Shown: positions 5,381-38,615 of the stretch, one piece after another
Numbering within the stretch: position 1 is the first letter of the stretch
Layout: each line of letters starts with the position of its first letter
From: a virus
IMG/VR virus record: IMGVR_UViG_3300013094_000106
Coordinates: 1 to 43,490 of that record
Direction: 5' to 3' (one strand)
Length of the DNA: 43,490 nt
Program-made: the position numbers and the translations under genes
Notes under the pieces: model-generated
Database searches by the model: none
What the model saw: the letters and a program-made list of their open reading frames with translations, nothing else
What the model was told of the DNA's origin: nothing

Positions 5381-5409
5381 ATTATAACAGGTTATTGCTT
5401 GACAGTCAA
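5381..5409 (-). promoter_or_regulatory. Sigma-70 promoter of the PD-(D/E)XK nuclease, leaderless type
   Basis: Minus strand: TTGACT (5409-5404), a 17-nt spacer, TATAAT (5386-5381), then AACAAA and the ATG at 5374. There is no room for a Shine-Dalgarno if transcription starts at the usual distance, so the mRNA should start at or next to the A of ATG. The -35 lies inside the 3' end of the upstream rSAM gene. Confidence 0.85.
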
Positions 5410-6678: not shown

Positions 6679-6995
6679 TATACCCGAAAACTTTCACCAC
6701 ATCCACAACGATCCCGTTCATTGGGATTAATGAATTCAAATCCTTCGTTGAGTCCTTGACGCACATAGTCCACAGTGATTCCGTCAACTATGGGCAGGCT
6801 TTTTTTATCCACAACAACCGTGGTATAATTGTCGGCCATGGCCACATCGCCGGGTTGTAGCTGATCTACATATTCCAACACATAAGCAAGACCACTGCAA
6901 CCAGTGGTTCGCACACCAATGCGAATGCCTATTCCGCCACGCTTGTTCAGGTTGGACTGAATTTTTTTAGCGGCTGTGTCAGTTACTGTTATCAT
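6678..6995 (-). CDS. iscA: Iron-sulfur cluster carrier protein IscA
   Basis: A-type Fe-S carrier, 105 aa, close to the family length. The three conserved cluster-ligand Cys are present: C33 in TTGCSGLAYVLE, and C97 and C99 in the C-terminal RCGCGESFRV. GLNEGFEFINPN matches bacterial IscA. It would receive clusters from IscU and pass them to apo-enzymes; [4Fe-4S] maturation is the usual role of this family, and six rSAM clients are encoded nearby. It overlaps iscU by 17 nt and the downstream rSAM by 1 nt. Carriage by a phage is uncommon. No damage to the gene is visible. Confidence 0.95.
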   Translation of the reverse strand: MITVTDTAAKKIQSNLNKRGGIGIRIGVRTTGCSGLAYVLEYVDQLQPGDVAMADNYTTVVVDKKSLPIVDGITVDYVRQGLNEGFEFINPNERDRCGCGESFRV

Positions 6996-7362
6996 GCTTG
7001 CTCTTGTAGTCGTTTATGGCAGCCTTAATAGCATCTTCTGCAAGGATCGAACAATGTATCTTAACCGGCGGGAGTGCCAGTTCCTCTGCAATCGCAGAGT
7101 TCTTAATTGCGCCAGCCTGGTCCAGTGTTTTGCCCTTGACCCATTCAGTGACCAGTGACGATGAAGCGATCGCCGACCCACAACCATAAGTTTTGAATCG
7201 TGCATCTACAATAATCCCGTCCTCTACTCGGATTTGTAGTTTCATCACATCGCCGCAGGCCGGAGCACCCACCATGCCAGTGCCAACTGTGTCGTCTATT
7301 TCCATCTTGCCCACGTTGCGTGGATTTTCATAGTGGTCTATTACTTTGTCGCTGTAGGCCAT
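6979..7362 (-). CDS. iscU: Iron-sulfur cluster assembly scaffold IscU
   Basis: Scaffold on which [2Fe-2S] clusters are built from sulfide supplied by the cysteine desulfurase IscS. The 127 aa match bacterial IscU length. All functional residues are present: C36 and D38 in GAPACGDVM, C61 in TYGCGSAIASSS, H103 and C104 in IHCSILAED, plus the HscA chaperone recognition motif LPPVK (97-101). From memory it is near-identical over long stretches to proteobacterial IscU, suggesting acquisition from a host and strong constraint. Start: ATG after AGGAAA, directly behind the stop of the small secreted protein. No iscS, hscA/B or fdx is seen, so host partners would be needed. Confidence 0.97.
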   Translation of the reverse strand: MAYSDKVIDHYENPRNVGKMEIDDTVGTGMVGAPACGDVMKLQIRVEDGIIVDARFKTYGCGSAIASSSLVTEWVKGKTLDQAGAIKNSAIAEELALPPVKIHCSILAEDAIKAAINDYKSKHDNSN

Positions 7363-7363
7363 A

Positions 7364-7531
7364 TTATTTTCCTGTTGGTGCTTTGGGTGCCTGAGGTGCT
7401 GGCGCAGTAGGTGGTCGAGGTTGAGGCGCAGTTGCAGGAGGTTTTTTAAAACTGTCTATCAACTGTTGTAAACCGGCTGCTGTGCCAGTGCCGGCAATCA
7501 ACATCATAAAAATAAAACAAATACGTTTCAT
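7364..7531 (-). CDS. Small secreted proline-rich protein, 55 aa
   Basis: I chose the ATG at 7531 because a GGGGAA Shine-Dalgarno precedes it, a TAAATA late-type motif lies at 7554-7559, and translation from there begins with a clean signal peptide (MKRICFIFMMLIAGTGTAAG). The mature part is a short helix (LQQLIDSFKK) followed by a Pro/Ala tail (PPATAPQPRPPTAPAPQAPK). A Pro-rich secreted peptide recalls Rz1 outer-membrane spanins, but there is no lipobox Cys. It heads the iscU-iscA-rSAM operon with its stop 1 nt before the iscU ATG. Function unknown. Confidence 0.65.
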   Translation of the reverse strand: MKRICFIFMMLIAGTGTAAGLQQLIDSFKKPPATAPQPRPPTAPAPQAPKAPTGK

Positions 7532-7553
7532 CTGGTTCCCCAATTTGCCGATA

Positions 7554-7559
7554 TATTTA
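7554..7559 (-). promoter_or_regulatory. Late-type promoter motif before the isc operon
   Basis: The minus strand reads ATAATAAATATAT, with TAAATA at 7559-7554, 22 nt before the ATG at 7531. Transcription from here would carry the small secreted protein, iscU, iscA and the rSAM at 5392-6678. It lies just inside the 3' end neighbourhood of the upstream rSAM gene. Confidence 0.55.
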
Positions 7560-7583
7560 TTATAGAATATTTGCCTGGTTCTG

Positions 7584-8477
7584 TCAACCGGTTTGTTGCT
7601 CTGCAAATCGTAGATCTTTTTTGCTGACCGAGGCAATGAGTTTGAAGTCTGAACTGACCGGGCAAAATTTACATTGTGCTAGCGGTTGATCTAGATTGGC
7701 CAAAAATTCAGCACCTCTAGTTTCAAATTCATCAGCACACAAGGGCCGATAGGCATTTATTAACTCTCGATCTTGATCTGATAGGTCAAAATGAAACTGT
7801 TGATCAAATTCTGGAAACAGGGCTACTGGGCCGCACTTGTATAACTTGCCGCGAATAAAATGATAATTTTTGTATTTGGCAAATCCACAGTTGTCGTGAG
7901 CCTTTTTGGGATCACTGTTGTGCAAGGTATAGCCACCAGCGCCGTTGGAGATAACCGAGCTTTGATAGAATCTGTGATGTGACCACATGGGAACAATTAT
8001 GCCATTTCGATCCATCCACATGATGTCAGCATGATACTTGTTGAGAACATGTGGACCATCAATGCGAGTTACAGGTTCCTTGAGAAACTGACGCACTTCG
8101 GCATCAATTTCGTCTATCTTGTTGGGGTTATGCCAGCTTATGCTTAACCAGTTGCCGTTGTTGCGTAAAAATTCATACAACCCCTTTACCTTGTTGATTC
8201 TGGTGCCATTAGTAAGTATCTGCACCTTGACGCCAAATACTTGATTGATGCCGCGAACCCATTCCAGTATGTCGGGGTTCAACAAGGGCTCGCCACCCAG
8301 TATCACAGCCTGACCAATTTCAACATGTTGAGCCCATTGCTGATATTCTTGTTCGTGGTCTGACCAACGTTGCCACCCAGAGAAATTAAAATTGTTGAAT
8401 CTATTGCAACCGTCGCAGGTCAAGTTACACACATTGGTGATGTAGAATTCAACCTTGGGTAGGAAATGTTTGGTCAT
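7584..8477 (-). CDS. Radical SAM protein with SPASM-like C-terminal Cys
   Basis: 297 aa. The radical SAM motif comes almost at the N-terminus (VCNLTCDGC; Cys 17, 21, 24), so this one lacks the N-terminal twitch domain of its five relatives in the window. VILGGEPLLNPD is the GGE motif. C-terminal Cys in NCGFAKYK, LYKCGPVALF and AQCKFCPVSS suggest a SPASM or twitch domain binding one or more auxiliary clusters. Reaction unknown; SPASM-type members often modify peptides or sugars. It follows a 7-bp hairpin and a TAAATA motif, and the next gene is the secreted peptide operon. No good SD precedes the ATG. Confidence 0.88.
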   Translation of the reverse strand: MTKHFLPKVEFYITNVCNLTCDGCNRFNNFNFSGWQRWSDHEQEYQQWAQHVEIGQAVILGGEPLLNPDILEWVRGINQVFGVKVQILTNGTRINKVKGLYEFLRNNGNWLSISWHNPNKIDEIDAEVRQFLKEPVTRIDGPHVLNKYHADIMWMDRNGIIVPMWSHHRFYQSSVISNGAGGYTLHNSDPKKAHDNCGFAKYKNYHFIRGKLYKCGPVALFPEFDQQFHFDLSDQDRELINAYRPLCADEFETRGAEFLANLDQPLAQCKFCPVSSDFKLIASVSKKDLRFAEQQTG

Positions 8478-26843: not shown

Positions 26844-26876
26844 CCATAAAAAAACCCTACATCAAGTAGGGTTTTT
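26844..26876 (-). terminator. Rho-independent terminator, 11-bp stem
   Basis: An 11-bp inverted repeat (26850-26860 with 26866-26876, core CCCTAC/GTAGGG) has A/T runs on both sides, so it could work on either strand. On the minus strand the U-run follows directly and ends the 219-aa late gene just before the early promoter of the membrane protein. Confidence 0.93.
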
Positions 26877-27623: not shown

Positions 27624-28379
27624 TCAACCTACAGCCATGCTCATTATGCTGTGATCAATCCAGGGCACTATGAGATCTTGTTGACGTAAATGCCCGTAGG
27701 ACATGATGGTGGCGTCGGTGGATTCAGGCAGGAGTTTTAACTCTGACAGCTGATACCAGCTGGCAGTTTTGGGATCCATGGGTTCGTGATCACTCTTGTA
27801 GACCACTGCATGTAACCAGGTATCTCCAGGTTCCTGCCGGAAAAAACCACTGCGACAGTCCCATCCATTGACAGCCAACATGTGTATAAGATTGACCATG
27901 GTATAGTGATAGTAGTTGGCGCTGGGCAGGTGATAATCCAACTGCCGGCGATGTATGCGCTGTGTTGTAGGCACACCAATATACAGCATGCCACCACGAC
28001 TGGCCATGTGCCACCAACGATTCAAGGTCTGTAAGGGTGCGGTTGCATATTGAAACGCATCGTGACACCATAAGATATCAAACCCCTTGGGCGGTGCTAT
28101 AATGTCCTTTTCAAAATCACCAGATTGATAAGTGATGTTGGGGTATTGTTGAGTCCAGGGCAAGGTTTCAGCTAGATCTATGCCGGTGCATTGTATTTTT
28201 AAAGGTTCTGGAGGAGTGTCACGTGTGGTTCTAGTGCCCCACCATTTGAGATCATCACCTAGTCCGCAACCCAGATCAACCACGCTGGTGATACTATACA
28301 TGAAATCATCATACTCATACAGTTGATTAAGTGTTTTGAGACTGTGTTGATGGCTGTCGCCCTGTGTTGCAAATGTCAT
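27624..28379 (-). CDS. Class I SAM-dependent methyltransferase
   Basis: 251 aa from the ATG at 28379. That ATG overlaps the uvsY stop (ATGA) and has GGAGG upstream; a longer frame to 28472 would run 97 nt into uvsY and lacks this signal. Motif I is SVVDLGCGLGDD; GIDLAETLPW fits the acidic residue after strand 2; DILWCHDAFQYA resembles motif post-I/II; HMASRGGMLYIGVP is motif III-like. The substrate is not evident; the pattern is closer to small-molecule or sugar methyltransferases than to DNA enzymes (no NPPY or TRD). It closes the operon rich in rSAM enzymes. Confidence 0.85.
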   Translation of the reverse strand: MTFATQGDSHQHSLKTLNQLYEYDDFMYSITSVVDLGCGLGDDLKWWGTRTTRDTPPEPLKIQCTGIDLAETLPWTQQYPNITYQSGDFEKDIIAPPKGFDILWCHDAFQYATAPLQTLNRWWHMASRGGMLYIGVPTTQRIHRRQLDYHLPSANYYHYTMVNLIHMLAVNGWDCRSGFFRQEPGDTWLHAVVYKSDHEPMDPKTASWYQLSELKLLPESTDATIMSYGHLRQQDLIVPWIDHSIMSMAVG

Positions 28380-28828
28380 ACCTGTATATCCTCCATTCCG
28401 GCTGTGCGCAAACGAACGATATGCCCACTCATCCAGCTCTTGCTGTCTAGACCTTTCATGATACCCAACCAACGATTTCTCAGCAGGGCCACTTCATTGA
28501 TAATGGTTTCAAAATCAATCACTTCATCTTCACCGTCCACATACTTTTCAGCATCTCTTGATGTGAGAGCTCTAGCGTATCCTTCCAGATACTTTTGAAA
28601 ATGTTTACGGCGTATTTTTCGCAACTGTATATTTAAGTGATTAAGAATAGCTTCAATTTCTTGTAGCTGGTTGAATCTGTGCTCAGTGATGCCGGGCAAG
28701 GCCGTGATATTCTTTTCCACAAGTCCACCAATGCGCACATCGCGTTTGGCATCATCCAACTCACGTTCATAGTGTGCAATAAAGTCTGGAATGTTGCTGA
28801 GATCTGCTACTATTTTGCTATACCACAT
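28376..28828 (-). CDS. uvsY: Recombination mediator UvsY
   Basis: Loads UvsX onto gp32-coated ssDNA. 150 aa (T4 UvsY is 137 aa). The sequence KYLEGYARALTSRDAEKYVDGEDEV, then EVALLRNRWLGIMKGLDSKSWMSGHIVRLRTAGMEDIQV, follows the pattern I remember for UvsY of marine T4-like phages. The N-terminus contains a helical ssDNA-binding part. It overlaps the rSAM gene upstream by 11 nt and the methyltransferase downstream by 4 nt. All three recombination proteins (gp32, UvsX, UvsY) are in one operon here, separated by metabolic inserts. Confidence 0.88.
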   Translation of the reverse strand: MWYSKIVADLSNIPDFIAHYERELDDAKRDVRIGGLVEKNITALPGITEHRFNQLQEIEAILNHLNIQLRKIRRKHFQKYLEGYARALTSRDAEKYVDGEDEVIDFETIINEVALLRNRWLGIMKGLDSKSWMSGHIVRLRTAGMEDIQV

Positions 28829-30065
28829 TTTCTAGTTCCTTTGCTAACCAGGGGAAGGTTGTTTGCCAATCCAATTTGCGACGGCGATCAATTTCGTTCA
28901 GGTGCGTGAGTAATTTAATTATTTCTTGCGTGTTTCTGCCTGCTTGTGCAATCTGACGACTGACTCCAAGCATGTAATTTTTTATTTCTTTCTGTTGCCA
29001 AGTATCTTCTGGCATAATACTTAGTATTTTTTTGAAATGGTTGTCAAAGAATCCTGCACCAAATATGTCAGGATTCATGTGTGAGGGAGTATTTACAGTG
29101 ATCAAATGATGTCCTATTTCTCGTGACTGTCTGTGACCATTGATGTATTCAATCAGTGCCGGTATGCTGGGCACAGACAAGGCCGATACAACCTGATTGA
29201 TGTTAAGAGTGATCCAGCGTTCTTTTACTAGGAATTCGAAATTCTCACGCCATTGGTCAAGATTCAGTCCGTGTCGAATATACTCCTGTTCTGGCCCCCA
29301 ACAGTCAATACTGGCTGTAAGATCAAAACGTTTGATTTTTCTAGTGGCCACTAGTTCTCGTATGCGGGCAATGTAGTTTTTGAACTTTTCCGGTGCTATC
29401 ATAAGGTTACTGACAATATTGAATTCTAATTCAGTGTTTTTATGATTGTACAGGAAATCCATGCAGGTGTCAAATTGTTGTTGATAAAACGGTTCGCCAC
29501 CCAAGATATGAAATCTGCGCACAGTGCTGTAGTGCAGATCCATCCAGATCCAAAATTCTTCTGTAAGTCTATCTTTCTCTGGGTGTGGTTGGCTGATGTT
29601 GTCAATTACCAATCCGTTTTTTTCAAAACGACCATACCGATTATTTTCCTGCTGTATGCGGCTGCTAAAACGATCTTCGCAATACACACAGCTCATGTTG
29701 CATACATTGTCAAAGTAAACTTCCACTATGCGCGGAGTTACTGTGGTGGCTCGAGGATCCAATTCTAGCTCTGGCGGAGTCAGATCAGGCACGTTGAGTT
29801 GCATCATACGATCGCTGACACCGCCAGCATCTTCAATTTTCTTGCAGTATTCGCAACCGCCCTGAGGCCACTGTCCTTGCAACATGAGTTCTCTGTCGGA
29901 TATCTTTTTGGGTGTGTTGTGAAAATTTGCAAAGCTGTCGGCAGTCAGATCGGAACGGTTCACTCGATGACAACTGTTGGTTTGGCCGTTGTAAAGATAG
30001 ATACTGCTCCAGGTCCACTTGAGCTGGCAAGCTGTTTCAGACTGTATGGGAAAATACTTATTCAT
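28818..30065 (-). CDS. Radical SAM protein with N-terminal twitch-type cluster domain
   Basis: 415 aa. Twitch Cys at 13, 32, 71 and 74 (GGCEYCKKIED), the radical SAM motif VCNMSCVYC (Cys 122, 126, 129), then HILGGEPFYQQ as the GGE motif. The C-terminal ~150 aa carry FKKILSIMPEDTWQQKEIKNYMLGVSRQIAQAGRNTQEIIK, a helical part seen in related phage members. Substrate unknown. It overlaps the rSAM gene upstream by 8 nt and uvsY by 11 nt. A tandem pair of diverged rSAM enzymes suggests successive steps on one substrate. Confidence 0.88.
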   Translation of the reverse strand: MNKYFPIQSETACQLKWTWSSIYLYNGQTNSCHRVNRSDLTADSFANFHNTPKKISDRELMLQGQWPQGGCEYCKKIEDAGGVSDRMMQLNVPDLTPPELELDPRATTVTPRIVEVYFDNVCNMSCVYCEDRFSSRIQQENNRYGRFEKNGLVIDNISQPHPEKDRLTEEFWIWMDLHYSTVRRFHILGGEPFYQQQFDTCMDFLYNHKNTELEFNIVSNLMIAPEKFKNYIARIRELVATRKIKRFDLTASIDCWGPEQEYIRHGLNLDQWRENFEFLVKERWITLNINQVVSALSVPSIPALIEYINGHRQSREIGHHLITVNTPSHMNPDIFGAGFFDNHFKKILSIMPEDTWQQKEIKNYMLGVSRQIAQAGRNTQEIIKLLTHLNEIDRRRKLDWQTTFPWLAKELENVV

Positions 30066-31167
30066 CTAGCCAGTTTATAAAATGTTCAGGAAAATTTTGC
30101 AACTCCAAATTTCTTAGATCTGCAAAACGATAAAGATACTGTCGCAATTTTTGTTTCTGTTCAACTGTGTGCTCTACCTTGAGAGTGTCTATCAGGTCTG
30201 GCATTAGATCGCTGTATAGGGCCTTGCTTGTGGGATCCAACACACTGGCACTGAGATAGTCTGGATCATTGCAGTAATTGATTATGTCGTGGTCTGTGCC
30301 AAACTCTGCGCGAAACTGCGCTAGACCATGCACGGTCAGATTGCTTACCACTGTGCAGAATTTATACTTGAATCGACTGCGAATCAATTCTAAGTTTTGC
30401 AAGAATCTATTCCAGGTGTTGCCGTATCTGTTGAACTGATAAAGCTGACCTATGTTTTCGGCACTGACCGTAAAGGTCACAGAGTCAGGTAGGCTGTCCA
30501 ACACACGTTCCAACCGACGAGTATCAACTCCTAGTCCGGTGAATATGTCTACTGGAGCTGTAAAGTTTGCTACCAGTTCAGCAAGACCGTTGTATAGAAA
30601 TGGTTCACCACCGGTGATTTCAATCTGCCGGGCGGTTTTGATATTGCGTATTTCGTCCAGGATCAGTTGATAGCTGTCGCTGGTTTTTATGGCCTTTTGT
30701 CCCAATTTTAAAACTATACGATCATTGTTGTTGATTTCAAATCGAGTGTCGGGCAGATAAGGTCCGTTGGCTTCAATGTCACGCAACCAGGCTGTGCTGT
30801 ATTGTTTGGTGCAGTAACTACAGGTCAAATTGCAATCACTTCCTAGATTGATGTGTAGAGTGGTTGGGTCGGCTACCGCATGTGTTGGTTGATCGGACTT
30901 CATCACAGTGCGTCGACTGGGCAGGCCGGCACGTTCGGCTTTCCAACAGGTATCTTCACAACTGGCCACCGGCTGATTGGCCAACATTTGTTCACGTTCG
31001 GTCTGTAGTAACCTGGTATTGAACAGTTGCCCAGGATTGGATCGTAGCCAGTCCATGTCAATTTTTTCTGGAGTGGCTGCACAACAAGACGCCACGGAAC
31101 GGCGTTCGGGTTCCACGGTCAACCACCAGAATTTTTGTGAGCAATAATAATTATCAATCATAGTCAT
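30058..31167 (-). CDS. Radical SAM protein with N-terminal twitch-type cluster domain
   Basis: 369 aa. Cys at 9, 28/29, 70 and 74 (SCEDTCWKAE, here CxxxC rather than CxxC) form the N-terminal cluster site. The radical SAM motif is DCNLTCSYC (112, 116, 119), and EITGGEPFLYNG is the GGE motif. The rest is a TIM-barrel half with DIFTGLGVDTRRLERVL and FTVSAENIGQLYQFNRYG. The changed spacing of the auxiliary Cys pair and the CC at 28/29 set it apart from the other members. It overlaps the upstream 289-aa ORF by 4 nt and the next rSAM gene by 8 nt. Confidence 0.87.
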   Translation of the reverse strand: MTMIDNYYCSQKFWWLTVEPERRSVASCCAATPEKIDMDWLRSNPGQLFNTRLLQTEREQMLANQPVASCEDTCWKAERAGLPSRRTVMKSDQPTHAVADPTTLHINLGSDCNLTCSYCTKQYSTAWLRDIEANGPYLPDTRFEINNNDRIVLKLGQKAIKTSDSYQLILDEIRNIKTARQIEITGGEPFLYNGLAELVANFTAPVDIFTGLGVDTRRLERVLDSLPDSVTFTVSAENIGQLYQFNRYGNTWNRFLQNLELIRSRFKYKFCTVVSNLTVHGLAQFRAEFGTDHDIINYCNDPDYLSASVLDPTSKALYSDLMPDLIDTLKVEHTVEQKQKLRQYLYRFADLRNLELQNFPEHFINWLDE

Positions 31168-32033
31168 ACAAAGTACACTTGGTTTACTTGTTGCCGTTGG
31201 GCTATTTCTTTGATCAATTGATCTCTGGGCATGGTTTCAATCAAACGGGCCACAGGCAGGCGATATGGTGCCACCAGTGGACCGTCGGGATCGGTTATGC
31301 CACGGCGATTAAAAAAATCAACATGGTTTAAAAAATATTCTTTTATTTTGTCTAATCTGGTTCGAACATCCAGGTCAGATTCTTCAAACATGCGCACAAC
31401 AAAATCAGCCGAGTAGTGCGAGAATGGTTTAAATGCTTCATCGGCTATGTAGTGATCATTGTCATTGGCAAGGTCTTCGACTGTTTTGCCTATTTCGCAG
31501 TAGTTCAAACAAATGGTTCCAAATGACGTGGCTAATTTTCCGTGATCCTGAATCAGTGCTGGATCCAGGGTTTGTGTCTTGGGCAGGCCAAACCAGGTGC
31601 ATACAAATCTAGGACGATTGCCTTGGCTTGCTGTTTCACAGCGGTGCACGGCCAAATTCAAATTGGCCAGAGCCCAACGCACATGAGCTGGAGCACGTCG
31701 CCAAAACTCATGATCCTGTTGATCCAGCAGACCGTGATACACTTCAAATACATGGTGCAGATAATTTAGACAATCTTGGTCATCAACTGTGGTAAATTCT
31801 CGTTCAATGATTGGTTCAAAATCATTGATTACTGCGATACAATGCGTGATGAATGCTGTGGCTCGGGCAATTTCCTCTTCCAGAGAATCAAATCCATAAA
31901 ATCTTTTTGCATCATCCAATGCATAGGCATCACGCAACTGCATGCGTTCTACCCACAATTTGGCCACAGGAGTATCTAATACCTGAAAATGTAATTTGAA
32001 TTGGTCAGACCCTAGTTCTATGCATAGTTGCAT
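31164..32033 (-). CDS. Hypothetical protein, 289 aa, helical, His-rich
   Basis: Not recognised. Predominantly helical with several His clusters (LNYLHHVFEVYHGLLDQQDHEFW; HYIADEAFKPFSHYS; NHVDFFNRRG) and a conserved-looking WFGLPKTQTLD. A metal-binding helical bundle is possible but no canonical motif is seen. It sits directly upstream of the tandem rSAM pair with a 4-nt overlap, so it may supply or bind their substrate; this is inference from coupling only. A palindromic element lies just before its ATG. Confidence 0.7.
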   Translation of the reverse strand: MQLCIELGSDQFKLHFQVLDTPVAKLWVERMQLRDAYALDDAKRFYGFDSLEEEIARATAFITHCIAVINDFEPIIEREFTTVDDQDCLNYLHHVFEVYHGLLDQQDHEFWRRAPAHVRWALANLNLAVHRCETASQGNRPRFVCTWFGLPKTQTLDPALIQDHGKLATSFGTICLNYCEIGKTVEDLANDNDHYIADEAFKPFSHYSADFVVRMFEESDLDVRTRLDKIKEYFLNHVDFFNRRGITDPDGPLVAPYRLPVARLIETMPRDQLIKEIAQRQQVNQVYFV

Positions 32034-32051
32034 TGTGAATTACTGTGCTTT

Positions 32052-32068
32052 GGATTATTTAATAATCC
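32052..32068. promoter_or_regulatory. Palindrome GGATTATT-T-AATAATCC
   Basis: A 17-nt inverted repeat overlaps the stop codon of the acidic 85-aa gene, 18 nt before the ATG at 32033. On the minus strand it contains TTAAATAATCC, close to the late-type motif. It may be an internal promoter, an operator or a weak RNA hairpin. Confidence 0.45.
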
Positions 32069-32316
32069 TCATCATCTTCCCAATCTTCCTCGTCATCGTC
32101 TTCCTCGTCATCGTCCTCTTCAACGTGATCTTTGAGATAGTGTGCCAAGGCACCTTTGACGTCGGCGTCACCTTTGAATGCATCTTTGATATCATCGGCT
32201 GAAACATCGTTATCAATCAAGACCGAAATCATGGCTTCGGCGGCTTCGTCACGATCCACCTTGTTTACATAACGTTTGAGTTCGGCCCAGATTTCGCTTG
32301 CTAGTTCTACTGACAT
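32059..32316 (-). CDS. Hypothetical protein with very acidic C-terminal tail, 85 aa
   Basis: The N-terminal ~60 aa form a helical domain (SEIWAELKRYVNKVDRDEAAEAMISVLI, then DIKDAFKGDADVKGALAHYL). The last ~20 aa are almost only Asp/Glu (EEDDDEEDDDEEDWEDDEDY). Acidic tails of this kind mimic DNA or act like the gp32 C-terminal tail in recruiting replication proteins. It begins directly after the uvsX stop behind a perfect GGAGG, so expression is probably tied to UvsX. I suggest a UvsX/gp32 modulator; no homologue can be named. Confidence 0.78.
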   Translation of the reverse strand: MSVELASEIWAELKRYVNKVDRDEAAEAMISVLIDNDVSADDIKDAFKGDADVKGALAHYLKDHVEEDDDEEDDDEEDWEDDEDY

Positions 32317-32317
32317 A

Positions 32318-33376
32318 TTATTCCTCCGTTGCTGTTTCTTCTGTTGTTACTGTTTCGCGCTGGTTGGCAAAGTCGGCCATGACCTTGTCCAAGCAACCAT
32401 CTTCATTGGATTCCCAAGCCTTGCGGAACTGTTTGATGATTTCGCCATCTGAAGTCACAAACATCAAGCGATTGCCGTCTTTCTTGAGCAGTCCTTTTTT
32501 CTCCGCTAAGTCAACAAGTCCTGAGTAAGGATTCATACCTGTCTCATACGGAATCTTGACCTGCACACCTTCAAACGGTTTGGCATAGCGTGTTTTCATT
32601 ACCTTACAACCGGCACGGATACCCATGACTTCGCTAATCTTGTTGCCATCTTCATCTTCTTTGAGTTTCATTTTCTTCATGGCTACTACAATACTGGAAG
32701 CATAGATAAAACCTTGACCACCTGAGATCTTGTCATCTGGATCAAACATGTCCTGTGACGCATAAGTATGATTAGTACACACAAGTCCTACATTGTAGCT
32801 GCCAAACATGTTGACACAGTTACGCACAAGTGCTGTAAGCGCCTTGGGTTTACGACCCAAGTCACCTTTCATTTCACCTGCATCAAACTGATTAACGTCT
32901 GTGGGCGTCAACAACATGCCCAGACTATCAATGATAAACATGACTTTTGGACGTTCGCCATCTGGAAGTGCTTTATAGTCGGCCATGAACGTTGAAATAG
33001 TTTTTGCTACATCATCAATCATGGCCATGGAGATTTTGAGCAACTTGTCCTCACCGGTATCGACACCCAAGGCCTTGAGCCAGTCTTCATCCAGGGCGTT
33101 TTCTGTGTCAATCAACACAACAAAGATACCTTGCTGTTGTGCGTTGCGGGCAATGTTGCCGCTACAGATATAACTTTTGCCTGCTCCCGATTCACCAGCA
33201 AACACAGTGACCTTACCAAGCGGAATACCCTTGTTAAAGTCTCCTGAAATAAGATAGTTCAAGGCAAAATTGCCTGTGCTGATCCAGTCAGTAGGATCGT
33301 TGAATCCAATACTGAGACCGTCGATACTCTTGGTGATTTCCTTGCGGAATTTTGATACGTCAAATGGCTTGCCCAT
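32318..33376 (-). CDS. uvsX: UvsX, RecA-like recombinase
   Basis: Forms filaments on ssDNA and catalyses strand exchange in recombination-dependent replication. 352 aa (T4 UvsX is 391 aa). Walker A is GESGAGKS (61-68); VMFIIDSLGMLLTP is Walker B; CTNHTYASQDMFDPDDKISGGQGFIYASSIVV covers the L2 region. The C-terminal tail is acidic (TVTTEETATEE). Start: ATG behind AAGGAAGG, overlapping the SGNH hydrolase gene by 17 nt. It is in the same operon as gp32 and UvsY but separated from both by accessory enzymes. Confidence 0.97.
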   Translation of the reverse strand: MGKPFDVSKFRKEITKSIDGLSIGFNDPTDWISTGNFALNYLISGDFNKGIPLGKVTVFAGESGAGKSYICSGNIARNAQQQGIFVVLIDTENALDEDWLKALGVDTGEDKLLKISMAMIDDVAKTISTFMADYKALPDGERPKVMFIIDSLGMLLTPTDVNQFDAGEMKGDLGRKPKALTALVRNCVNMFGSYNVGLVCTNHTYASQDMFDPDDKISGGQGFIYASSIVVAMKKMKLKEDEDGNKISEVMGIRAGCKVMKTRYAKPFEGVQVKIPYETGMNPYSGLVDLAEKKGLLKKDGNRLMFVTSDGEIIKQFRKAWESNEDGCLDKVMADFANQRETVTTEETATEE

Positions 33377-34313
33377 GATTACCTTCCTTTATAAAATTAA
33401 ATATTTTTTCTGCATACTGCCGGTGTTGCTCAGGTCCAGGATGATTTCCGTCTGACCCTAAATCTACAAACTGTATAATCTCATCACCAATGACAGATAA
33501 TCCTTGTGTTAGATCAATATAGTTTTTAAAACTGCTCAACATCACTCCTAACCAAGCAATATCCATCAGATTGACAATATATAGCTGGGCTTGTATTTTT
33601 TTACAAAAATTTATCACCTGCAAAATACTTCTCAATGATGTCATTACCTGTGTTTGACTTTCAAAATAATCCAAGTTCCAATACTGATAATCTGTTGACA
33701 ACTTGGTATACTGACTGATTGGCACAGATTTGGTTGTCCAATTTTCACTAATTTCAACTCGACTGACATTGGTCAATCCCCAAACAACTGTGTCGCCGGC
33801 TTGTATGTCGGACCTTAGAATTTGATCGGCGGCCCAACTGATCGAAGTTCCACTTTTAGACAAGGATACTTCTTGAAGGTTCAACTGATCAGCCAGCCTT
33901 GTGCCCCATCGCTCTTGCGGGTCAACCCCGGTGCCGTAAGTGATTGAGCAACCAACTGTCCACAACAAAGGATCTTCGCCGGTTCGATCTTGTTCTAACT
34001 GGTCAACTGACCTGGTCCAAGAAAAATTTTTCACTTTGTCTGGGTGGCGTAGTAATTCGTTAAACAGTCTTCCATATGCAAAACAGTTGGCATTGGTAAC
34101 AGCAATATCTTGATCTACATCAACTAGGATTATCTCTTCAGCATGTTTGCAGGCCAGACTAATATTTTTACAGGTCAAATCTTCGACAGAAGTATAACAA
34201 TCTACGGCATCGGACTGTGCAATTAACCGATCAAGATTGCGATAATCCACAGGAGTTGACTCTGGATTGTTCCAGTTATGTTCAACTGTTGAAATGTATA
34301 ATTTATTGATCAT
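33360..34313 (-). CDS. SGNH/GDSL-type hydrolase with extra N-terminal region
   Basis: 317 aa. Residues ~1-112 are an extra domain of unknown role (with VDVDQDIAVTNANCFAYGRLFNELL). The SGNH domain begins at WTVGCSITYGTGV, where block I reads GCS (Ser 123) in place of GDS. SKSGTSISWAADQIL is block II-like. VDLGSDGNHPGPEQHRQYA is block V, with the His of the triad. Related GCS-type domains are known from phage and cell-surface polysaccharide clusters, where they act as O-acyl-transferases or esterases. It overlaps rSAM upstream (ATGA) and uvsX downstream. No signal peptide, so cytoplasmic. Confidence 0.8.
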   Translation of the reverse strand: MINKLYISTVEHNWNNPESTPVDYRNLDRLIAQSDAVDCYTSVEDLTCKNISLACKHAEEIILVDVDQDIAVTNANCFAYGRLFNELLRHPDKVKNFSWTRSVDQLEQDRTGEDPLLWTVGCSITYGTGVDPQERWGTRLADQLNLQEVSLSKSGTSISWAADQILRSDIQAGDTVVWGLTNVSRVEISENWTTKSVPISQYTKLSTDYQYWNLDYFESQTQVMTSLRSILQVINFCKKIQAQLYIVNLMDIAWLGVMLSSFKNYIDLTQGLSVIGDEIIQFVDLGSDGNHPGPEQHRQYAEKIFNFIKEGNHGQAI

Positions 34314-35455
34314 TTTAGTTTGTATAATTCTGTAAAAATCTTACCACTGTCCTGGCCACGTCGTTGATCCATTGTTTTTATCTTGTCAAACGATCCTGTT
34401 AGATCTTTTTCAAAGGGTTCTTGTATATAACTCAACATGTTGCGATAGCTGTCTTCCAACAGGTAGCCGGGTCGATCATCAATCCTTTTTTGTATTTTAT
34501 GCTTCAACAAGTTTAACACACTATCTGGTAAATGTCTAATATTTAGGTATTCTGGAGTGAGCAATGCACCAATCACAAAGCTGTTGTTATGGAATCCCAA
34601 TCCTTTTAGGTAATCCACACAGTCAAACACGGTATCGTAGTTCAACAGAAACCACAGCATGTTGAAACTGACACGATGATCCAACTGCTGTATGCGGGTT
34701 AGGTTTTCCAAAAAGTCCGGCCAGGTATGACCAAAACGTATGTATTCAAATTCGTCTTCTTGTGTTTCTACACTGATGGTCCAATGCACATTTTTGAATT
34801 CACAGATACGGTCAAACACCTGTGTTGTGGTCTTGGTGAGATTGGTATTGACCCGCAGATTAACGTCTGGATTGACACGTTGCAACAGTTCCAACAGTTC
34901 TAGATTTTCTTTCATGAGCAGGGGTTCACCGCCGGCCAAATACACATGTTTGAGTGTGGCCGCATGGTCAAAGATATACTGCTTGAACTGTTCCAACTGT
35001 GCCGAATCTGGACGTGTGATAGGCTCTTGCATTTCGTCGGCCCAACGACTGCTGAATTCTGGACCACAATACACACAGGCCAAGTTGCACAAATTGGTCC
35101 AACGCACATCCATGGTCCTGAGATCATGCTGATCTACCTGATAAGTGTCTAGGGGCACCTGCTTGAGTTCACGCAGATAAAACACACGGTCGCTGATGAT
35201 ATCAAACCCGGTCTTGTCTTTTTCTAAATTGTAACAGGTATAACAGTTGGCTCCAGGCTGGTTGGCCAGCATGTTGCGCTGTGTGGCTAGATTTGCATCA
35301 CCGTGCAAAATTTGTTCTATGCTGTTGTGTTTGAGATTGCCCAAGGCGCCGGCACTGCGGATACAGTTTTTTACCTTGCCGTCTACATTATACATGAGTC
35401 CGGTCCAGGGCATGGGACAAAAATTGCGATTGGTCAGGAAATCCTTGGGTGTCAT
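34310..35455 (-). CDS. Radical SAM protein with N-terminal twitch-type cluster domain
   Basis: 381 aa and the most canonical of the set. The N-terminus NFCPMPWTGLMYNVDGKVKNC gives Cys 13 and 31, followed by NCYTCYNLE (71, 74): the CPxPW-x-NC-x-CxxC layout of N-terminal twitch rSAM proteins. The radical SAM motif is LCNLACVYC (123, 127, 130); YLAGGEPLLMKEN is the GGE motif; WTISVETQEDEFEYIRFG follows. Such proteins occur in marine bacteria and phages with no established reaction. Coupled by 4-nt overlaps to the SDR before it and the SGNH hydrolase after it, so the three may act in sequence. Confidence 0.9.
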   Translation of the reverse strand: MTPKDFLTNRNFCPMPWTGLMYNVDGKVKNCIRSAGALGNLKHNSIEQILHGDANLATQRNMLANQPGANCYTCYNLEKDKTGFDIISDRVFYLRELKQVPLDTYQVDQHDLRTMDVRWTNLCNLACVYCGPEFSSRWADEMQEPITRPDSAQLEQFKQYIFDHAATLKHVYLAGGEPLLMKENLELLELLQRVNPDVNLRVNTNLTKTTTQVFDRICEFKNVHWTISVETQEDEFEYIRFGHTWPDFLENLTRIQQLDHRVSFNMLWFLLNYDTVFDCVDYLKGLGFHNNSFVIGALLTPEYLNIRHLPDSVLNLLKHKIQKRIDDRPGYLLEDSYRNMLSYIQEPFEKDLTGSFDKIKTMDQRRGQDSGKIFTELYKLK

Positions 35456-35991
35456 TGAGGTCCTAGTGTGATGTCTGGTATGACCAGGTTGTTATTTTTG
35501 GCCATATCAAGCAGATCCAATAGGGTTCTTGCCCAGTTATTGACATCGGCTGCTGGTGGCACTGTTTTATCTGCACTGGTAGCTATGTTGCCAGGTCTGA
35601 CCACCGTGATCTTGATGCCCAACCTACGATAACGCAGTTGTCGAACTGCCTGTTCCAGAGTGGTCTTTTGCACCCAGTATTGATCCATGTCTAGTCCCGG
35701 CAGGACCGATACCGGATCTTGAGTCATTTGTGTGCTGATCACTATGATGCGTTTGCCGGTTCCGGCCCAGCGTTGAGCCATTTCAAATAAGAGTTCAGTC
35801 TGTGCGAATCCAGCCTGTGCATTGTTCACAAACACATCACACGGTTCAATCTGATCACAAATTTTAGGCGTGTTGCGTATGTTGTTGCCTTCGCGCTTGC
35901 TGAGTCCCACAATCTCATGCCCGTCCAGCGCATACTCCCGGGCCAAGGCCTGACCTATTCCGGCTGTGTGTCCTGTGATGGCTATTTTCAT
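35452..35991 (-). CDS. Short-chain dehydrogenase/reductase (SDR)
   Basis: 179 aa, short for the family (about 250), but with the core intact: ITGHTAGIG (TGxxxGxG cofactor site, residues 6-13), VFVNNAQAG (the NNAG motif), VISTQMT (catalytic Ser region), and YWVQK (YxxxK catalytic pair) followed by VVRPGNIAT. An NAD(P)-dependent oxidoreductase of a sugar or small alcohol is likely. The C-terminal substrate-binding part is trimmed. It overlaps rSAM genes on both sides by 4 nt, so it is embedded in a pathway-like string. Confidence 0.88.
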   Translation of the reverse strand: MKIAITGHTAGIGQALAREYALDGHEIVGLSKREGNNIRNTPKICDQIEPCDVFVNNAQAGFAQTELLFEMAQRWAGTGKRIIVISTQMTQDPVSVLPGLDMDQYWVQKTTLEQAVRQLRYRRLGIKITVVRPGNIATSADKTVPPAADVNNWARTLLDLLDMAKNNNLVIPDITLGPQ

Positions 35992-36872
35992 ATCATACCT
36001 CTGAGTTGTTGTTGTTGGCGTATGTATGCATCTCTAGCCACGGTGTCGGTATTATCAACACTCAATTGATAAGGTTCTTTGAGATAAGCATAGCCATGAT
36101 CAATGCCGTGTTCTTGAGCAAAGGCCTGAATGTTGGGCAGGTCATCTTGATTCAACACACTGACCGTGGTCCATAAATTCAGGCGAACCGGCATGGTTTT
36201 ATAGGTCATCAAGTTTGCATAGAAAGTTTCCCAGAGTATGGGCCATCGAACAAATTCAAACTTTTTGCCAATGCCGTCACAACTGACCGTGACTGTGACT
36301 TCAATGCCCTGTTTGGCGATTGCTGTCAGCTCTTCCAACACTACATTGCAGTTGGTATTGAGTCTGAGTGTGCGTAGATTGGGTGGTAAATTGGCCAAGA
36401 TACGTTTGTAGTTTTTGCTGTAACTGGGTTCCCCACCGTTGATGTCCAGATGCACGATGCGTTCTTGTGGCAGGTCCCAGAATCGATCAAGATTGTTGAT
36501 GGTTGTAAAATCCTTTCCGTGCAGATTGCCTATGCGAGTGCTACAGTCGGGACTACAGGTCATGCAGGCCGCATTGCACACATTGTCCAGCACTCCACCG
36601 ACCTGTAGGTAATCGGCCTCGGGTGTTTGTTGATCCAGCGCCAGGGCATGTATTCTTATACTGTTGGAGTTGGTAGCTTCGACTTCTTGACAGCGTATGC
36701 ATTCGGCTGGCCACGATTCTTGCGACAGTTGTTGTTTGATATTGGCCAACCAGGCACTGGACTCCATGTCCTCCAAGGAGTCAAATTCAGCAGGTGCAAC
36801 CATGTGTCCACATCGGCTCACTGTGCCGTTGGGATTAAAACGCACAAAGTGATCTAGTCTAGGACACTGCAT
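35988..36872 (-). CDS. Radical SAM protein with N-terminal twitch-type cluster domain
   Basis: 294 aa, the shortest of the twitch members. Cys 3 and 21 (MQCPRLDHFVRF; SRCGHM), then 58 and 61 (ECIRCQEVEA). Radical SAM motif VCNAACMTC (99, 103, 106). DINGGEPSYSKN is the GGE motif, and VTVSCDGIGKKFEFVRWP follows. It lacks the extra C-terminal extension of the 381- and 415-aa members, ending soon after the barrel. It is the first rSAM of the gp32 operon, overlapping the sulfotransferase-like gene by 14 nt and the SDR by 4 nt. Confidence 0.88.
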   Translation of the reverse strand: MQCPRLDHFVRFNPNGTVSRCGHMVAPAEFDSLEDMESSAWLANIKQQLSQESWPAECIRCQEVEATNSNSIRIHALALDQQTPEADYLQVGGVLDNVCNAACMTCSPDCSTRIGNLHGKDFTTINNLDRFWDLPQERIVHLDINGGEPSYSKNYKRILANLPPNLRTLRLNTNCNVVLEELTAIAKQGIEVTVTVSCDGIGKKFEFVRWPILWETFYANLMTYKTMPVRLNLWTTVSVLNQDDLPNIQAFAQEHGIDHGYAYLKEPYQLSVDNTDTVARDAYIRQQQQLRGMI

Positions 36873-37518
36873 AAGTTGGATTCAATATTCTTTGGCTACG
36901 ACCTATGACCCAGTCGTAGGCAGTTGGATCTGTTTGTTTTACGTCTGCAATCACCTGGGCAAATGTCATAGACTGTCCTATGTGTGACATCAAGACCTGA
37001 TCGCAACGATGATACATTTCGGTGTGGGCAATGTCGGTCAATTGGCCGCGCAGTTCGTCTGATATGTCTTGTATGCCTTGTGGTTTTCTATTCAGTTTGG
37101 TTAGCGTGTGCAACTGATCCATGCCCATAAAATTCAATTTGGTTTCAGGATTCATATATCTAGCCAGGTTGACCAACCAGTGCAACTGTGGAGCATAATG
37201 TCTGTTTAAAAAAAGATAATTTTTTGCAAACCAAATCACTGTGGCCCGGTCAAGGTCAGGATGATCTCGCATGACTGTTTGTATGTATGTGTTGATGCCA
37301 GACTCTAATCGTTCTTGCGGGTCTCGCAAGATCACATCAATTGATGTTAATTTTTTTATTTGATCATTGATCAAAATACGCTGTTGATACAGTTCAGCCT
37401 GTTGCATGAGACTGGATCGACCGTTTTTAAAAATGCAATAGACATACCGCTGTGATGGTATGACTTCTATTACCTCACAGCGGTCTGGAAAAACAATACT
37501 ATCTAAATGCGACAGCAT
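36859..37518 (-). CDS. Sulfotransferase-like protein
   Basis: 219 aa. Two features of PAPS-dependent sulfotransferases are visible: YVYCIFKNGRSSLMQ (31-37 KNGRSSL, in the place of the 5'-phosphosulfate loop) and IDVILRDPQERLESGIN (65-70 RDPQER, the 3'-phosphate motif). The rest is helical and unassigned. PAPS supply would come from the host. Transfer of sulfate to a glycan or small molecule is plausible. It is the first gene after gp32 (3-nt gap) and leads into the rSAM/SDR string. Confidence in the fold is moderate, in the substrate nil. Confidence 0.7.
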   Translation of the reverse strand: MLSHLDSIVFPDRCEVIEVIPSQRYVYCIFKNGRSSLMQQAELYQQRILINDQIKKLTSIDVILRDPQERLESGINTYIQTVMRDHPDLDRATVIWFAKNYLFLNRHYAPQLHWLVNLARYMNPETKLNFMGMDQLHTLTKLNRKPQGIQDISDELRGQLTDIAHTEMYHRCDQVLMSHIGQSMTFAQVIADVKQTDPTAYDWVIGRSQRILNPTYAVS

Positions 37519-37521
37519 GTA

Positions 37522-38511
37522 TTAGGCTTTTTGACGTGCCCTGATCATGGCCAAAATATCTTCTGCTTTTTGTGTAGAAGGTTTGGCTTCGATTGGTGCC
37601 GATGCCACTGCTGGCTCATCGTCATCAAAGTCACTGGTCACAGCAGGTGCCGCTTTGGCCACTGGTGCTGGTGTATCCTCGTCAGCCACAGCCGGTGCAC
37701 TTGTTGCGGCACCTGCAGGAGCATTAACTCCAGCTGGACGGAAGTAAGCACCCCAACGCTCGGTATCGTAGCTTTGACCATCAACCGACGCTTCAAACAT
37801 TTCTTTGATGACCTTGAGTTCTGCTTCGCCTGGCTTCTTGGGCATGAATGTGCTCAAGTCAAACAGGCCATACTGCTCAATGGCCGCTTGTTCAGCTTCG
37901 GTAAGTGCTGTTTCTTTACGAGCCCATTTAGATCCGTTGTAGTCAGCAAAGCCGCCTTTGCTACCTTTTGAAATACGGAAGTCTAGGCCACGCAGGTAGT
38001 CAGTTGGCAATTCTTCCAACTCTGGATCCATCAGGGCACCTTTGATGGTGGTAAAGATCTGAGGACCAATGATGAAGCGACGGATTGGATTCTCTGGAGT
38101 TTTGTCATCGCTGAGTGGATTTTCACGCACAAAGCCTTGGAAAATATAACTGCGTTTTTTCCAATACTTGCGACCCATTTCTTCCAAGCTCTTGTCTTTG
38201 AACCAAGTGCGAACTTCAGTTAGCACTGGGCAAGTCTCGCCCCACATTTCCACGCAAGGAACCTGAACATAGACCTGCTTGGATTCCATTTCGCCCTTGA
38301 TGCCATTGAATGGCAAACGGATCATGGCTCGTTCTTGCCAAAAGAATGTGTTTTTGGTATTGCCGTCTGGTAGGAAGCGTAGTGTGGCGCTTGCGCCTTC
38401 TTCCATGTTCCAGTGTGGGTAAATTGCGGAGTCACCGCCTGTAGAGTTACCACCGCCTTGTTTTGATTCGCTAGCGGCTAATCGTGCGCGAATTTCTGCT
38501 AAAGATGCCAT
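37522..38511 (-). CDS. 32: Single-stranded DNA-binding protein, gp32
   Basis: Coats ssDNA and organises replication, recombination and repair. 329 aa (T4 gp32 is 301 aa). The N-terminal basic self-interaction region (MASLAEIRARLAASESKQ) leads into an OB-fold core with YPHWNMEEGASATLRFLPDG and FFWQERAMIRLPF. A Cys pair at 86 and 94 (CVEMWGETCPVLTEVRTWF) occupies the zinc-site region. The C-terminus is acidic (DEDTPAPVAK, then DFDDDEPAV), as expected for recruiting partners, but ends in basic IRARQKA. It heads an ~11-kb operon and has a structured leader and two promoter types upstream. Confidence 0.95.
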   Translation of the reverse strand: MASLAEIRARLAASESKQGGGNSTGGDSAIYPHWNMEEGASATLRFLPDGNTKNTFFWQERAMIRLPFNGIKGEMESKQVYVQVPCVEMWGETCPVLTEVRTWFKDKSLEEMGRKYWKKRSYIFQGFVRENPLSDDKTPENPIRRFIIGPQIFTTIKGALMDPELEELPTDYLRGLDFRISKGSKGGFADYNGSKWARKETALTEAEQAAIEQYGLFDLSTFMPKKPGEAELKVIKEMFEASVDGQSYDTERWGAYFRPAGVNAPAGAATSAPAVADEDTPAPVAKAAPAVTSDFDDDEPAVASAPIEAKPSTQKAEDILAMIRARQKA

Positions 38512-38581: not shown

Positions 38582-38615
38582 ATTATACACAGCTAGGTCT
38601 GTGTTTGCAACCTAG
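38582..38615 (-). promoter_or_regulatory. Sigma-70 promoter of gp32 with operator-like inverted repeat
   Basis: Minus strand: TTGCAA (38610-38605), a 17-nt spacer, TATAAT (38587-38582). The inverted repeat CTAGGT (38593-38598) / ACCTAG (38610-38615) flanks the -35 box with an 11-nt gap, the size expected for a dimeric regulator. Confidence 0.78.

Follow-up and report, generated by a model that had tools for sequence, protein, structure and literature searches.

Several described systems resemble parts of the locus analyzed here. In phage T4, mobile genes have inserted beside gene 32 (segG) and uvsX (segA), and regulatory elements of gene 32 are embedded in the coding sequence of its neighbor (PMC2988022); there, however, the inserts encode homing endonucleases and their embedded promoters lie upstream of gene 32, whereas here the cargo is biosynthetic and the embedded element is a hairpin downstream of gp32. 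In pelagimyophages, cassettes of GT8, rfaE-type, and radical-SAM genes occupy a hypervariable island, a host-recognition cluster whose authors infer modification of the host O-chain (PMC7029224). In these SAR11 phages the island is found in a tail-gene region, flanked by VrlC and gp14, while the cargo described here sits precisely in the gaps that separate gp32, uvsX, and uvsY in jumbo phages, and a fixed sulfotransferase-radical SAM-SDR-radical SAM unit is part of it. Among cultured phages, Paride/PA5oct (Arenbergviridae), Phosso, and Vibrio phage 2.275.O share the core order terL..gp32-uvsX-(acidic ORF)-uvsY..helicase and carry a hairpin between gp32 and uvsX but, unlike the window, have no cassette; in Paride an unannotated ORF interrupts the uvsX region, with a homing endonuclease downstream. 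The reading we prefer, with a probability of roughly 55%, is a hotspot whose main cargo, a four-gene pathway, most likely modifies a sugar in a glycan of the host envelope or the virion.

The window, meaning the whole 43,490-nt stretch of IMG/VR virus record IMGVR_UViG_3300013094_000106, contains the 13 ORFs of the cluster in the order given by the initial annotation, all on the minus strand: gp32, a sulfotransferase (ST), rSAM_A, SDR, rSAM_B, SGNH, uvsX, an acidic ORF, p289, rSAM_C, rSAM_D, uvsY, and a methyltransferase (coordinates below are window positions, on the minus strand for every gene and signal of this group). The first 11 junctions, from gp32 on, are +3, -14, -4, -4, -4, -17, +1, +25, -4, -8, and -11 nt; the last, uvsY/methyltransferase, is -97 with the listed TTG start and -4 with an ATG at 28379. 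Nine of the 12 overlap by 4–17 nt, so that “nearly all,” as first described, was slightly generous. The genes from gp32 to the methyltransferase overlap at most junctions and likely form one transcription unit, and co-expression of the cluster, as originally suggested, is likely. A promoter-like site lies upstream of gp32 (38582-38610; a 10/12 match to the sigma-70 consensus, which does not imply usage), and a strong terminator-like hairpin comes after the unit (26850-26876; 11-bp stem and T run). An Rfam scan of the window gave no match.

The identities of the three recombination genes are borne out by PHROG matches: the ssDNA-binding protein gp32 (37522-38511; PHROG 1192, E 2e-71), which forms the 5′ edge of the hotspot and is 53% identical to Paride/PA5oct gp32; the recombinase uvsX (32318-33376; PHROG 97, E 3e-70), 82–98% identical in the 80 viral loci listed; and the recombination mediator uvsY (28376-28828; PHROG 231, E 1.3e-12), whose family profile also matches uvsY of Paride, Phosso, and Vibrio 2.275.O. 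At the DNA level, a megablast search against cultured phages returned a short uvsX match and nothing else. The small acidic-tailed ORF (32059-32316; 85 aa) is found in loci without any neighboring radical-SAM gene and has a homolog in phage Phosso (gp415, E 1e-10). Its membership in the core led us to discard the idea that it is a radical-SAM substrate.

The small ST protein (36859-37518; 219 aa) is a divergent sulfotransferase by motif and predicted fold, lying outside the Pfam families. It conserves K31..S35S36 (the 5′-phosphosulfate loop) and R65xP67..R70 (3′-phosphate, RxPxxR); in an alignment of 33 sequences K31, R65, and R70 are invariant, and G33, S35, S36, and P67 are conserved at ≥90%. 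The AF2 model is confident (pLDDT 87), and its best 25 solved matches are all sulfotransferases (Z 3.8–5.8 by VIA-align, a range at which other folds are possible), led by heparan-sulfate 3-O-sulfotransferases at a modest Z of 5.8; in BFVD it matches a viral sulfotransferase (E 5e-17, TM 0.77). Motif and fold thus both place it with the PAPS-dependent sulfotransferases, while a Pfam scan at E 0.1 found no sulfotransferase profile match; the original “sulfotransferase-like” call holds, although the protein is invisible to Pfam. The next gene but one, SDR (35452-35991; 179 aa), is a short-chain dehydrogenase/reductase as first annotated, matching PF00106 (1.2e-6) and PF01370 (2.7e-6).

All four predicted radical-SAM proteins are in or near the NCBIfam family NF033640 (N_Twi_rSAM, twitch domain-containing radical SAM; cut-off 170 bits), in agreement with their first annotation. 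The twitch-domain proteins rSAM_B (34310-35455; 381 aa; 254 bits) and rSAM_D (28818-30065; 242 bits) are above the cut-off; rSAM_A, with N-terminal twitch cysteines (35988-36872; 294 aa; 135.7 bits), and the twitch protein rSAM_C (30058-31167; 154.4 bits; PF04055, 5e-9) are below it and are related to the family without being filed as members. The CxxxCxxC cluster motif is kept in 82/82 rSAM_A and 91/91 rSAM_B relatives, and seven cysteines are invariant in rSAM_A (C3, C21, C58, C61, C99, C103, and C106). Missed in the initial annotation were two further radical-SAM genes with a NifU-like gene at 5392-8477; rSAM_F also scores above the NF033640 cut-off (188 bits).

The solved radical-SAM enzymes nearest by sequence include the peptide maturase SkfB and 7-carboxy-7-deazaguanine synthase, and no sugar enzymes. 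Since the search for solved relatives of rSAM_A found SkfB alone, and several peptide-maturase families score weakly against these proteins, the twitch/SPASM radical-SAM enzymes might instead mature a RiPP by cross-linking a phage-encoded precursor peptide, for example an inhibitor of competitors. This seems quite improbable: the cassette genes overlap by 4–14 nt, so that a precursor gene would not fit between them, the sole constant small ORF is the acidic core gene, present without neighboring radical-SAM genes and in Phosso, and sulfotransferase and SDR companions would be untypical.

ST, rSAM_A, SDR, and rSAM_B are a recurrent, co-inherited four-gene unit with intact catalytic motifs. Of 59 scorable loci selected by rSAM_B, which is the most conserved cassette gene (mean column identity 72%), 57 have all four in the gp32-uvsX gap. 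Distances among rSAM_A, SDR, and rSAM_B correlate at 0.42–0.57, against 0.22–0.41 with gp32 or uvsX and 0.84 for gp32 with uvsX, and the dN/dS values of the three (0.10–0.13) indicate purifying selection. SGNH, p289, rSAM_C and rSAM_D (both in the uvsX-uvsY gap), and the methyltransferase are optional add-ons. Two degenerate-pattern scans of bacterial and archaeal contigs with the radical-SAM alignments yielded no confirmed relative and no homologous cellular cassette that might suggest a function, a weak negative because the patterns were narrow. The cargo offers uncharacterized radical-SAM, SDR, and sulfotransferase chemistry.

Of 62 uvsX-anchored relatives, 19 have nothing between gp32 and uvsX, 10 have the four-gene cassette there and 1 a partial one, and 32 have unrelated inserts. 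Mapped onto the uvsX tree, the state of the cassette requires 11 changes for 11 rows, no less scattered than shuffled labels, and gap contents differ between phages with identical or near-identical UvsX proteins. In one pair of loci (L145 and L146) the DNA is 91–95% identical on both sides of both gaps, and the contents differ cleanly, from stop codon to start codon, in both. Because contents vary over near-identical UvsX, and because the core of cultured relatives is without the cassette, the gp32/uvsX/uvsY gaps are a cargo hotspot in a large uncultured jumbo phage clade. What had been a suggestive gene order becomes a defined, repeatedly used docking site in this abundant clade.

The initial annotation had proposed that the tailoring chemistry is coupled to recombination, and had named a shared core with unrelated inserts as evidence against this; such loci are largely what the survey found. 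Cassettes do recur in the same gaps between core genes, as it expected, but the same core also occurs with unrelated inserts or none. A direct coupling is unsupported, given the cultured cores without a cassette and a cassette history different from that of gp32 and uvsX, and, since what fills the gap changes without regard to the core, it was not retained as the default. The three recombination genes would instead serve as a conserved scaffold and a source of flanking homology rather than as partners in the cargo chemistry, probably lending the cargo their transcription.

Thymidine hypermodification is known to involve radical-SAM enzymes, and the position of the cassette among gp32, uvsX, and uvsY would suit a pathway for synthesizing a modified base or decorating DNA in the course of recombination-dependent replication. 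A DNA role keeps some likelihood because T4 uvsX neighbors the DNA glucosyltransferase gene beta-gt (PMC2988022), but it is an unlikely one: most relatives share the replication core but not the cassette, the contigs of 15 relatives (~1.06 Mb, partial genomes) yielded neither QueC nor any member of the thymidylate-synthase/hydroxymethylase family, and a search of 50,697 cultured phage records turned up nothing related to ST, rSAM_A, or rSAM_B at the sensitivity used.

The optional cargo is more varied. The SGNH/GDSL-like hydrolase or acyltransferase (33360-34313; 317 aa) is carried by a minority of cassette loci; its original assignment is motif-like, with Pfam support that is weak (PF00657, E 0.0055, below cut-off). 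The methyltransferase (27624-28379) was correctly called a generic SAM-dependent enzyme (PF08241, 1e-5); moving its start to ATG 28379 gives 251 aa, the usual length among relatives. Relatives of p289 (31164-32033) are the sole or first gp32-uvsX insert in other phages; Pfam, PHROG, and NCBIfam gave no convincing match for this cargo family, and its structure model is too poor for use (pLDDT 52). Other gap inserts include a hexapeptide acyltransferase, a formyltransferase, a C-methyltransferase, AMP-binding proteins, a hydroxylase, and a desaturase. The rapid turnover of contents would fit an arms race, and rSAM_C matches TYW1 weakly (1.7e-6), so modification of tRNA or rRNA, or some other change to a host metabolite, directed against defense systems was also considered. 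We regard this as rather unlikely, since Pfam and NCBIfam scans found no RNA-binding domain and the cargo variety (acyl, formyl, sulfo, C-methyl, hydroxylase) better fits the tailoring of surface molecules.

Tailoring of a glycan sugar is favored because of this cargo chemistry and because relatives often have sugar-nucleotide and glycosyltransferase genes downstream of uvsY. These include GDP-mannose dehydratase, RmlD, UDP-GlcNAc epimerase, and DegT aminotransferase, along with GT25, GT2, FkbM, and SAM synthetase; the ORFs upstream of gp32 showed no such cargo families. Of 50 loci, 40 have one or more of four sugar families, without association between these downstream genes and the cassette (24/28 vs. 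16/22, P 0.30), and none of the four was found in the window itself. The ST model is nearest to carbohydrate sulfotransferases. The tailoring-type chemistry first noted for the inserted enzymes is thus supported; of the products then suggested (DNA base, capsule sugar, or peptide), context favors, without proving, the sugar, and a modified DNA base is unsupported. We infer the following reactions, order, target, and benefit. The predicted radical-SAM enzymes would oxidize, dehydrate, or isomerize a sugar carbon, SDR would then reduce the ketone left by that step, ST would sulfate a sugar hydroxyl, and SGNH and the methyltransferase would adjust acyl or methyl groups, so that the phage would alter a surface glycan during infection. 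AprD4/AprD3 of apramycin biosynthesis, where a radical-SAM enzyme is paired with its own NADPH-dependent reductase and the substrate is a sugar ring (PMC5461906), offer a mechanistic analogy only.

The junction with gp32 has a feature of its own. A hairpin follows the gp32 stop codon in every empty allele, and of the ST alleles that begin directly at this codon, 44 of 46 have an equivalent hairpin within the coding sequence of ST itself (in the window, an inverted repeat at 37446-37484, within ST codons ~12–24). Where ST alleles keep the gp32 spacer, only 2 of 12 have an internal hairpin (the ST starts of L065, L066, L067, and L151, automatically misplaced, were moved by hand to this class before counting). 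It thus appears from the sequences that gp32 mRNA needs a hairpin just 3′ of its stop codon, and that the ST-internal hairpin stands in for the one normally in the gp32-uvsX spacer: empty alleles would keep it in the spacer, and inserts abutting gp32 would often carry one in their own reading frame.

A simple terminator reading was considered. That the hairpin follows gp32 in every empty allele would fit a transcription attenuator rather than an mRNA-stabilizing or processing element, but an attenuator is doubtful, if possible: the hairpin tails are weakly T-rich, and the ST-internal copies have no adjacent T run, yet the downstream genes are conserved. T4 gene 32 mRNA, moreover, is known for its stability and 3′ processing (PMC3014915). 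We think it fairly probable that gp32 is a cargo socket, its mRNA requiring a hairpin after the stop codon that inserting genes repeatedly re-create in their own coding sequence. If so, unrelated enzyme genes could be swapped behind gp32 with control of its mRNA retained, and losing such cargo would carry a cost. The re-created hairpin shows a route by which an essential operon may accept new genes, and makes control at the gp32 mRNA 3′ end testable. The ST-internal hairpin is more stable than synonymous recodings (44/46), beyond what the protein sequence requires, and its stem has compensatory base-pair changes; several unrelated inserts likewise carry an internal hairpin.

All thirteen ORFs assigned by the initial annotation to one operon, from gp32 to a methyltransferase gene, lie on the minus strand in the order it gave, and PHROG profiles bear out the identities of gp32, uvsX and uvsY. 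Its overlapping junctions hold for 9 of 12 (4–17 nt), once the methyltransferase start is reset to the ATG at 28379. A promoter-like site upstream (38610) and a terminator-like hairpin downstream (26850), both predicted from sequence, bracket the unit.

The gp32-uvsX gap holds a four-gene cassette: a sulfotransferase gene (ST), rSAM_A, SDR and rSAM_B. A Pfam search with ST gave zero matches. Its phosphosulfate loop and RxPxxR motif are conserved across 33 relatives, and it matches a viral sulfotransferase model (E 5e-17). Its AlphaFold2 model is confident (pLDDT 87), and the best 25 matches among solved structures are all sulfotransferases, headed by heparan-sulfate 3-O-sulfotransferases (Z 5.8). 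Profile search places the unit's four radical-SAM proteins (rSAM_A to rSAM_D) within or close to NF033640, a twitch-domain subfamily; rSAM_B and rSAM_D pass its curated cut-off, while rSAM_A and rSAM_C miss it. Two further radical-SAM genes, rSAM_E and rSAM_F (5392-8477), stand on either side of a NifU-like gene for Fe-S assembly (6979-7362), an arrangement suggesting that the phage provides the radical-SAM set with an Fe-S source; rSAM_F exceeds the NF033640 cut-off, and rSAM_E lacks the N-terminal twitch part.

A scan of viral contigs gave 141 relatives of rSAM_B; ST, rSAM_A and rSAM_B had no relatives in 50,697 phage records. With few exceptions, the best 80 of the 141 have ST-rSAM_A-(2OG oxygenase-like ORF)-SDR-rSAM_B in the gp32-uvsX gap; SGNH or other radical-SAM genes are optional ahead of uvsX, as are rSAM_C/rSAM_D ahead of uvsY. 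The choice of query biases the gap content of this sample. The optional 157-aa ORF between rSAM_A and SDR (L008:1635-2108 and relatives) resembles 2OG-Fe(II) oxygenases in sequence, and had no match in a Pfam search.

Most of that bias is removed by an independent uvsX scan (at least 80 loci, close uvsX relatives only, 82-98% identity). The expectation that cassettes keep to the same gaps was borne out in that the cassette recurs between gp32 and uvsX, but many of these loci are empty or carry other genes. Among the matches listed, the 62 loci with this gap complete comprise 19 empty, 10 with the cassette, 1 partial and 32 with other genes, and the uvsX-uvsY gap is empty in 39, with rSAM_D in 13 and rSAM_C in 11; the IMG/VR contigs are fragments, there is overlap between some loci (one contig carries both L010 and L128), and ORF calling was mechanical. 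Among the further inserts found in one gap or the other are radical SAM (9 of 72 scanned), AMP-binding, hexapeptide acyltransferase, Asp/Arg hydroxylase, B12-binding radical SAM, C-methyltransferase, formyltransferase, desaturase and SGNH families, and that of p289 (the 289-aa ORF before rSAM_C), which in other phages is located between gp32 and uvsX. Recurring between uvsX and the small acidic ORF is a pair made up of a different type of radical SAM (229-234 aa) and a cysteine-containing ORF of about 105 aa (L071:5195-6194, L057:4448-5435 and similar), which may be a distinct cassette.

On the uvsX tree, cassette state requires 11 changes for 11 rows, equal at best to shuffled labels, and within each of two sets of identical UvsX proteins gap contents differ. 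Loci L145 and L146 are 91-95% identical in the DNA around both gaps. At each gap one of the two loci has an insert and the other has none, and the borders fall cleanly at stop and start codons. Over 39 loci, the correlation of distances is 0.84 between gp32 and uvsX but only 0.22-0.46 between cassette genes and the core; among rSAM_A, SDR and rSAM_B it is 0.42-0.57, with ST tied more loosely. Median dN/dS, from few unsaturated pairs, is 0.10-0.13 for these three, close to gp32 (0.12), and 0.28 for ST. Three cultured jumbo phages, Paride, Phosso and Vibrio 2.275.O, share the order gp32-uvsX-(acidic ORF)-uvsY and lack the cassette. In Paride (L162, 1-16000) an unannotated ORF splits uvsX into two annotated CDSs, with a homing endonuclease downstream, so that the neighbourhood also seems to be a homing-element target.

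A strong spacer hairpin follows the gp32 stop codon in 19 of 19 empty alleles and all three of these cultured relatives, against 25 of 1060 random windows under the same rule. The 75 nt past gp32 fold at a mean of -22.0 kcal/mol in empty, -27.7 in cassette and -21.0 in other alleles; random windows average -13.4, and the stretches following rSAM_A, SDR, uvsX and uvsY give -11 to -13. Most cassette alleles have lost the spacer hairpin, because the start of ST lies 12 nt or less from the gp32 stop; an inverted repeat inside the ST reading frame (37446-37484 in the window) appears to replace it. In 44 of the 46 alleles where ST lies near the gp32 stop, no more than 3 of 300 synonymous recodings are more stable than this internal hairpin, versus 2 of 12 spacer-keeping ST alleles (four ST starts corrected by hand; P 8e-8, nominal since the sequences are related). 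Its stem includes compensatory pair types (e.g., GC/AT/CG, CG/TA/GC, GC/AT/TA). Among unrelated inserts, an ORF-internal hairpin (z -2.4 or lower, a cut-off picked after the data were seen, in related loci) occurs in 10 of 17 abutting gp32 versus 1 of 16 with a spacer. We read the hairpin as an element that the gp32 mRNA requires at its 3′ end and that is re-created inside the cargo; it may stabilize the message, be a processing site or act as an attenuator. Among phage messages in T4, the one from gene 32 is the most stable, and RNase E processes it near its 3′ end (PMC3014915).

The chemistry of the cassette and cargo set (sulfation, radical oxidation or dehydration, ketone reduction, acyl/methyl transfer, hydroxylation, formylation) would be of a sugar or natural-product tailoring type, and glycan tailoring by the cassette is the reading we favor, at a probability of roughly 0.55. 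AprD4/AprD3 pairs a radical-SAM enzyme with a reductase and acts on a sugar (PMC5461906), and in pelagimyophages a hypervariable island, tied by its authors to host surface change, contains radical-SAM cassettes together with GT8 and rfaE genes (PMC7029224). DNA modification by the cassette is less likely: the beta-gt gene does adjoin uvsX in T4 (PMC2988022), but 15 contigs searched, all fragments, contained no thymidylate-synthase-family or QueC genes.

As to glycan tailoring, genes downstream of uvsY in relatives include GDP-mannose dehydratase, RmlD, UDP-GlcNAc epimerase, DegT aminotransferase, GT25, GT2, FkbM and, once, SAM synthetase; none of these families is listed among the ORFs upstream of gp32. 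Of 50 loci with sufficient sequence, 40 carry one or more of four sugar families, independently of the cassette (24/28 against 16/22, P 0.30); a search of the window for the four found none. Also downstream of uvsY, in L010, L012, L042, L054 and others, is a family of about 300 aa (c8), without a Pfam match and possibly a glycosyltransferase, in up to 6 copies per locus and on both strands.
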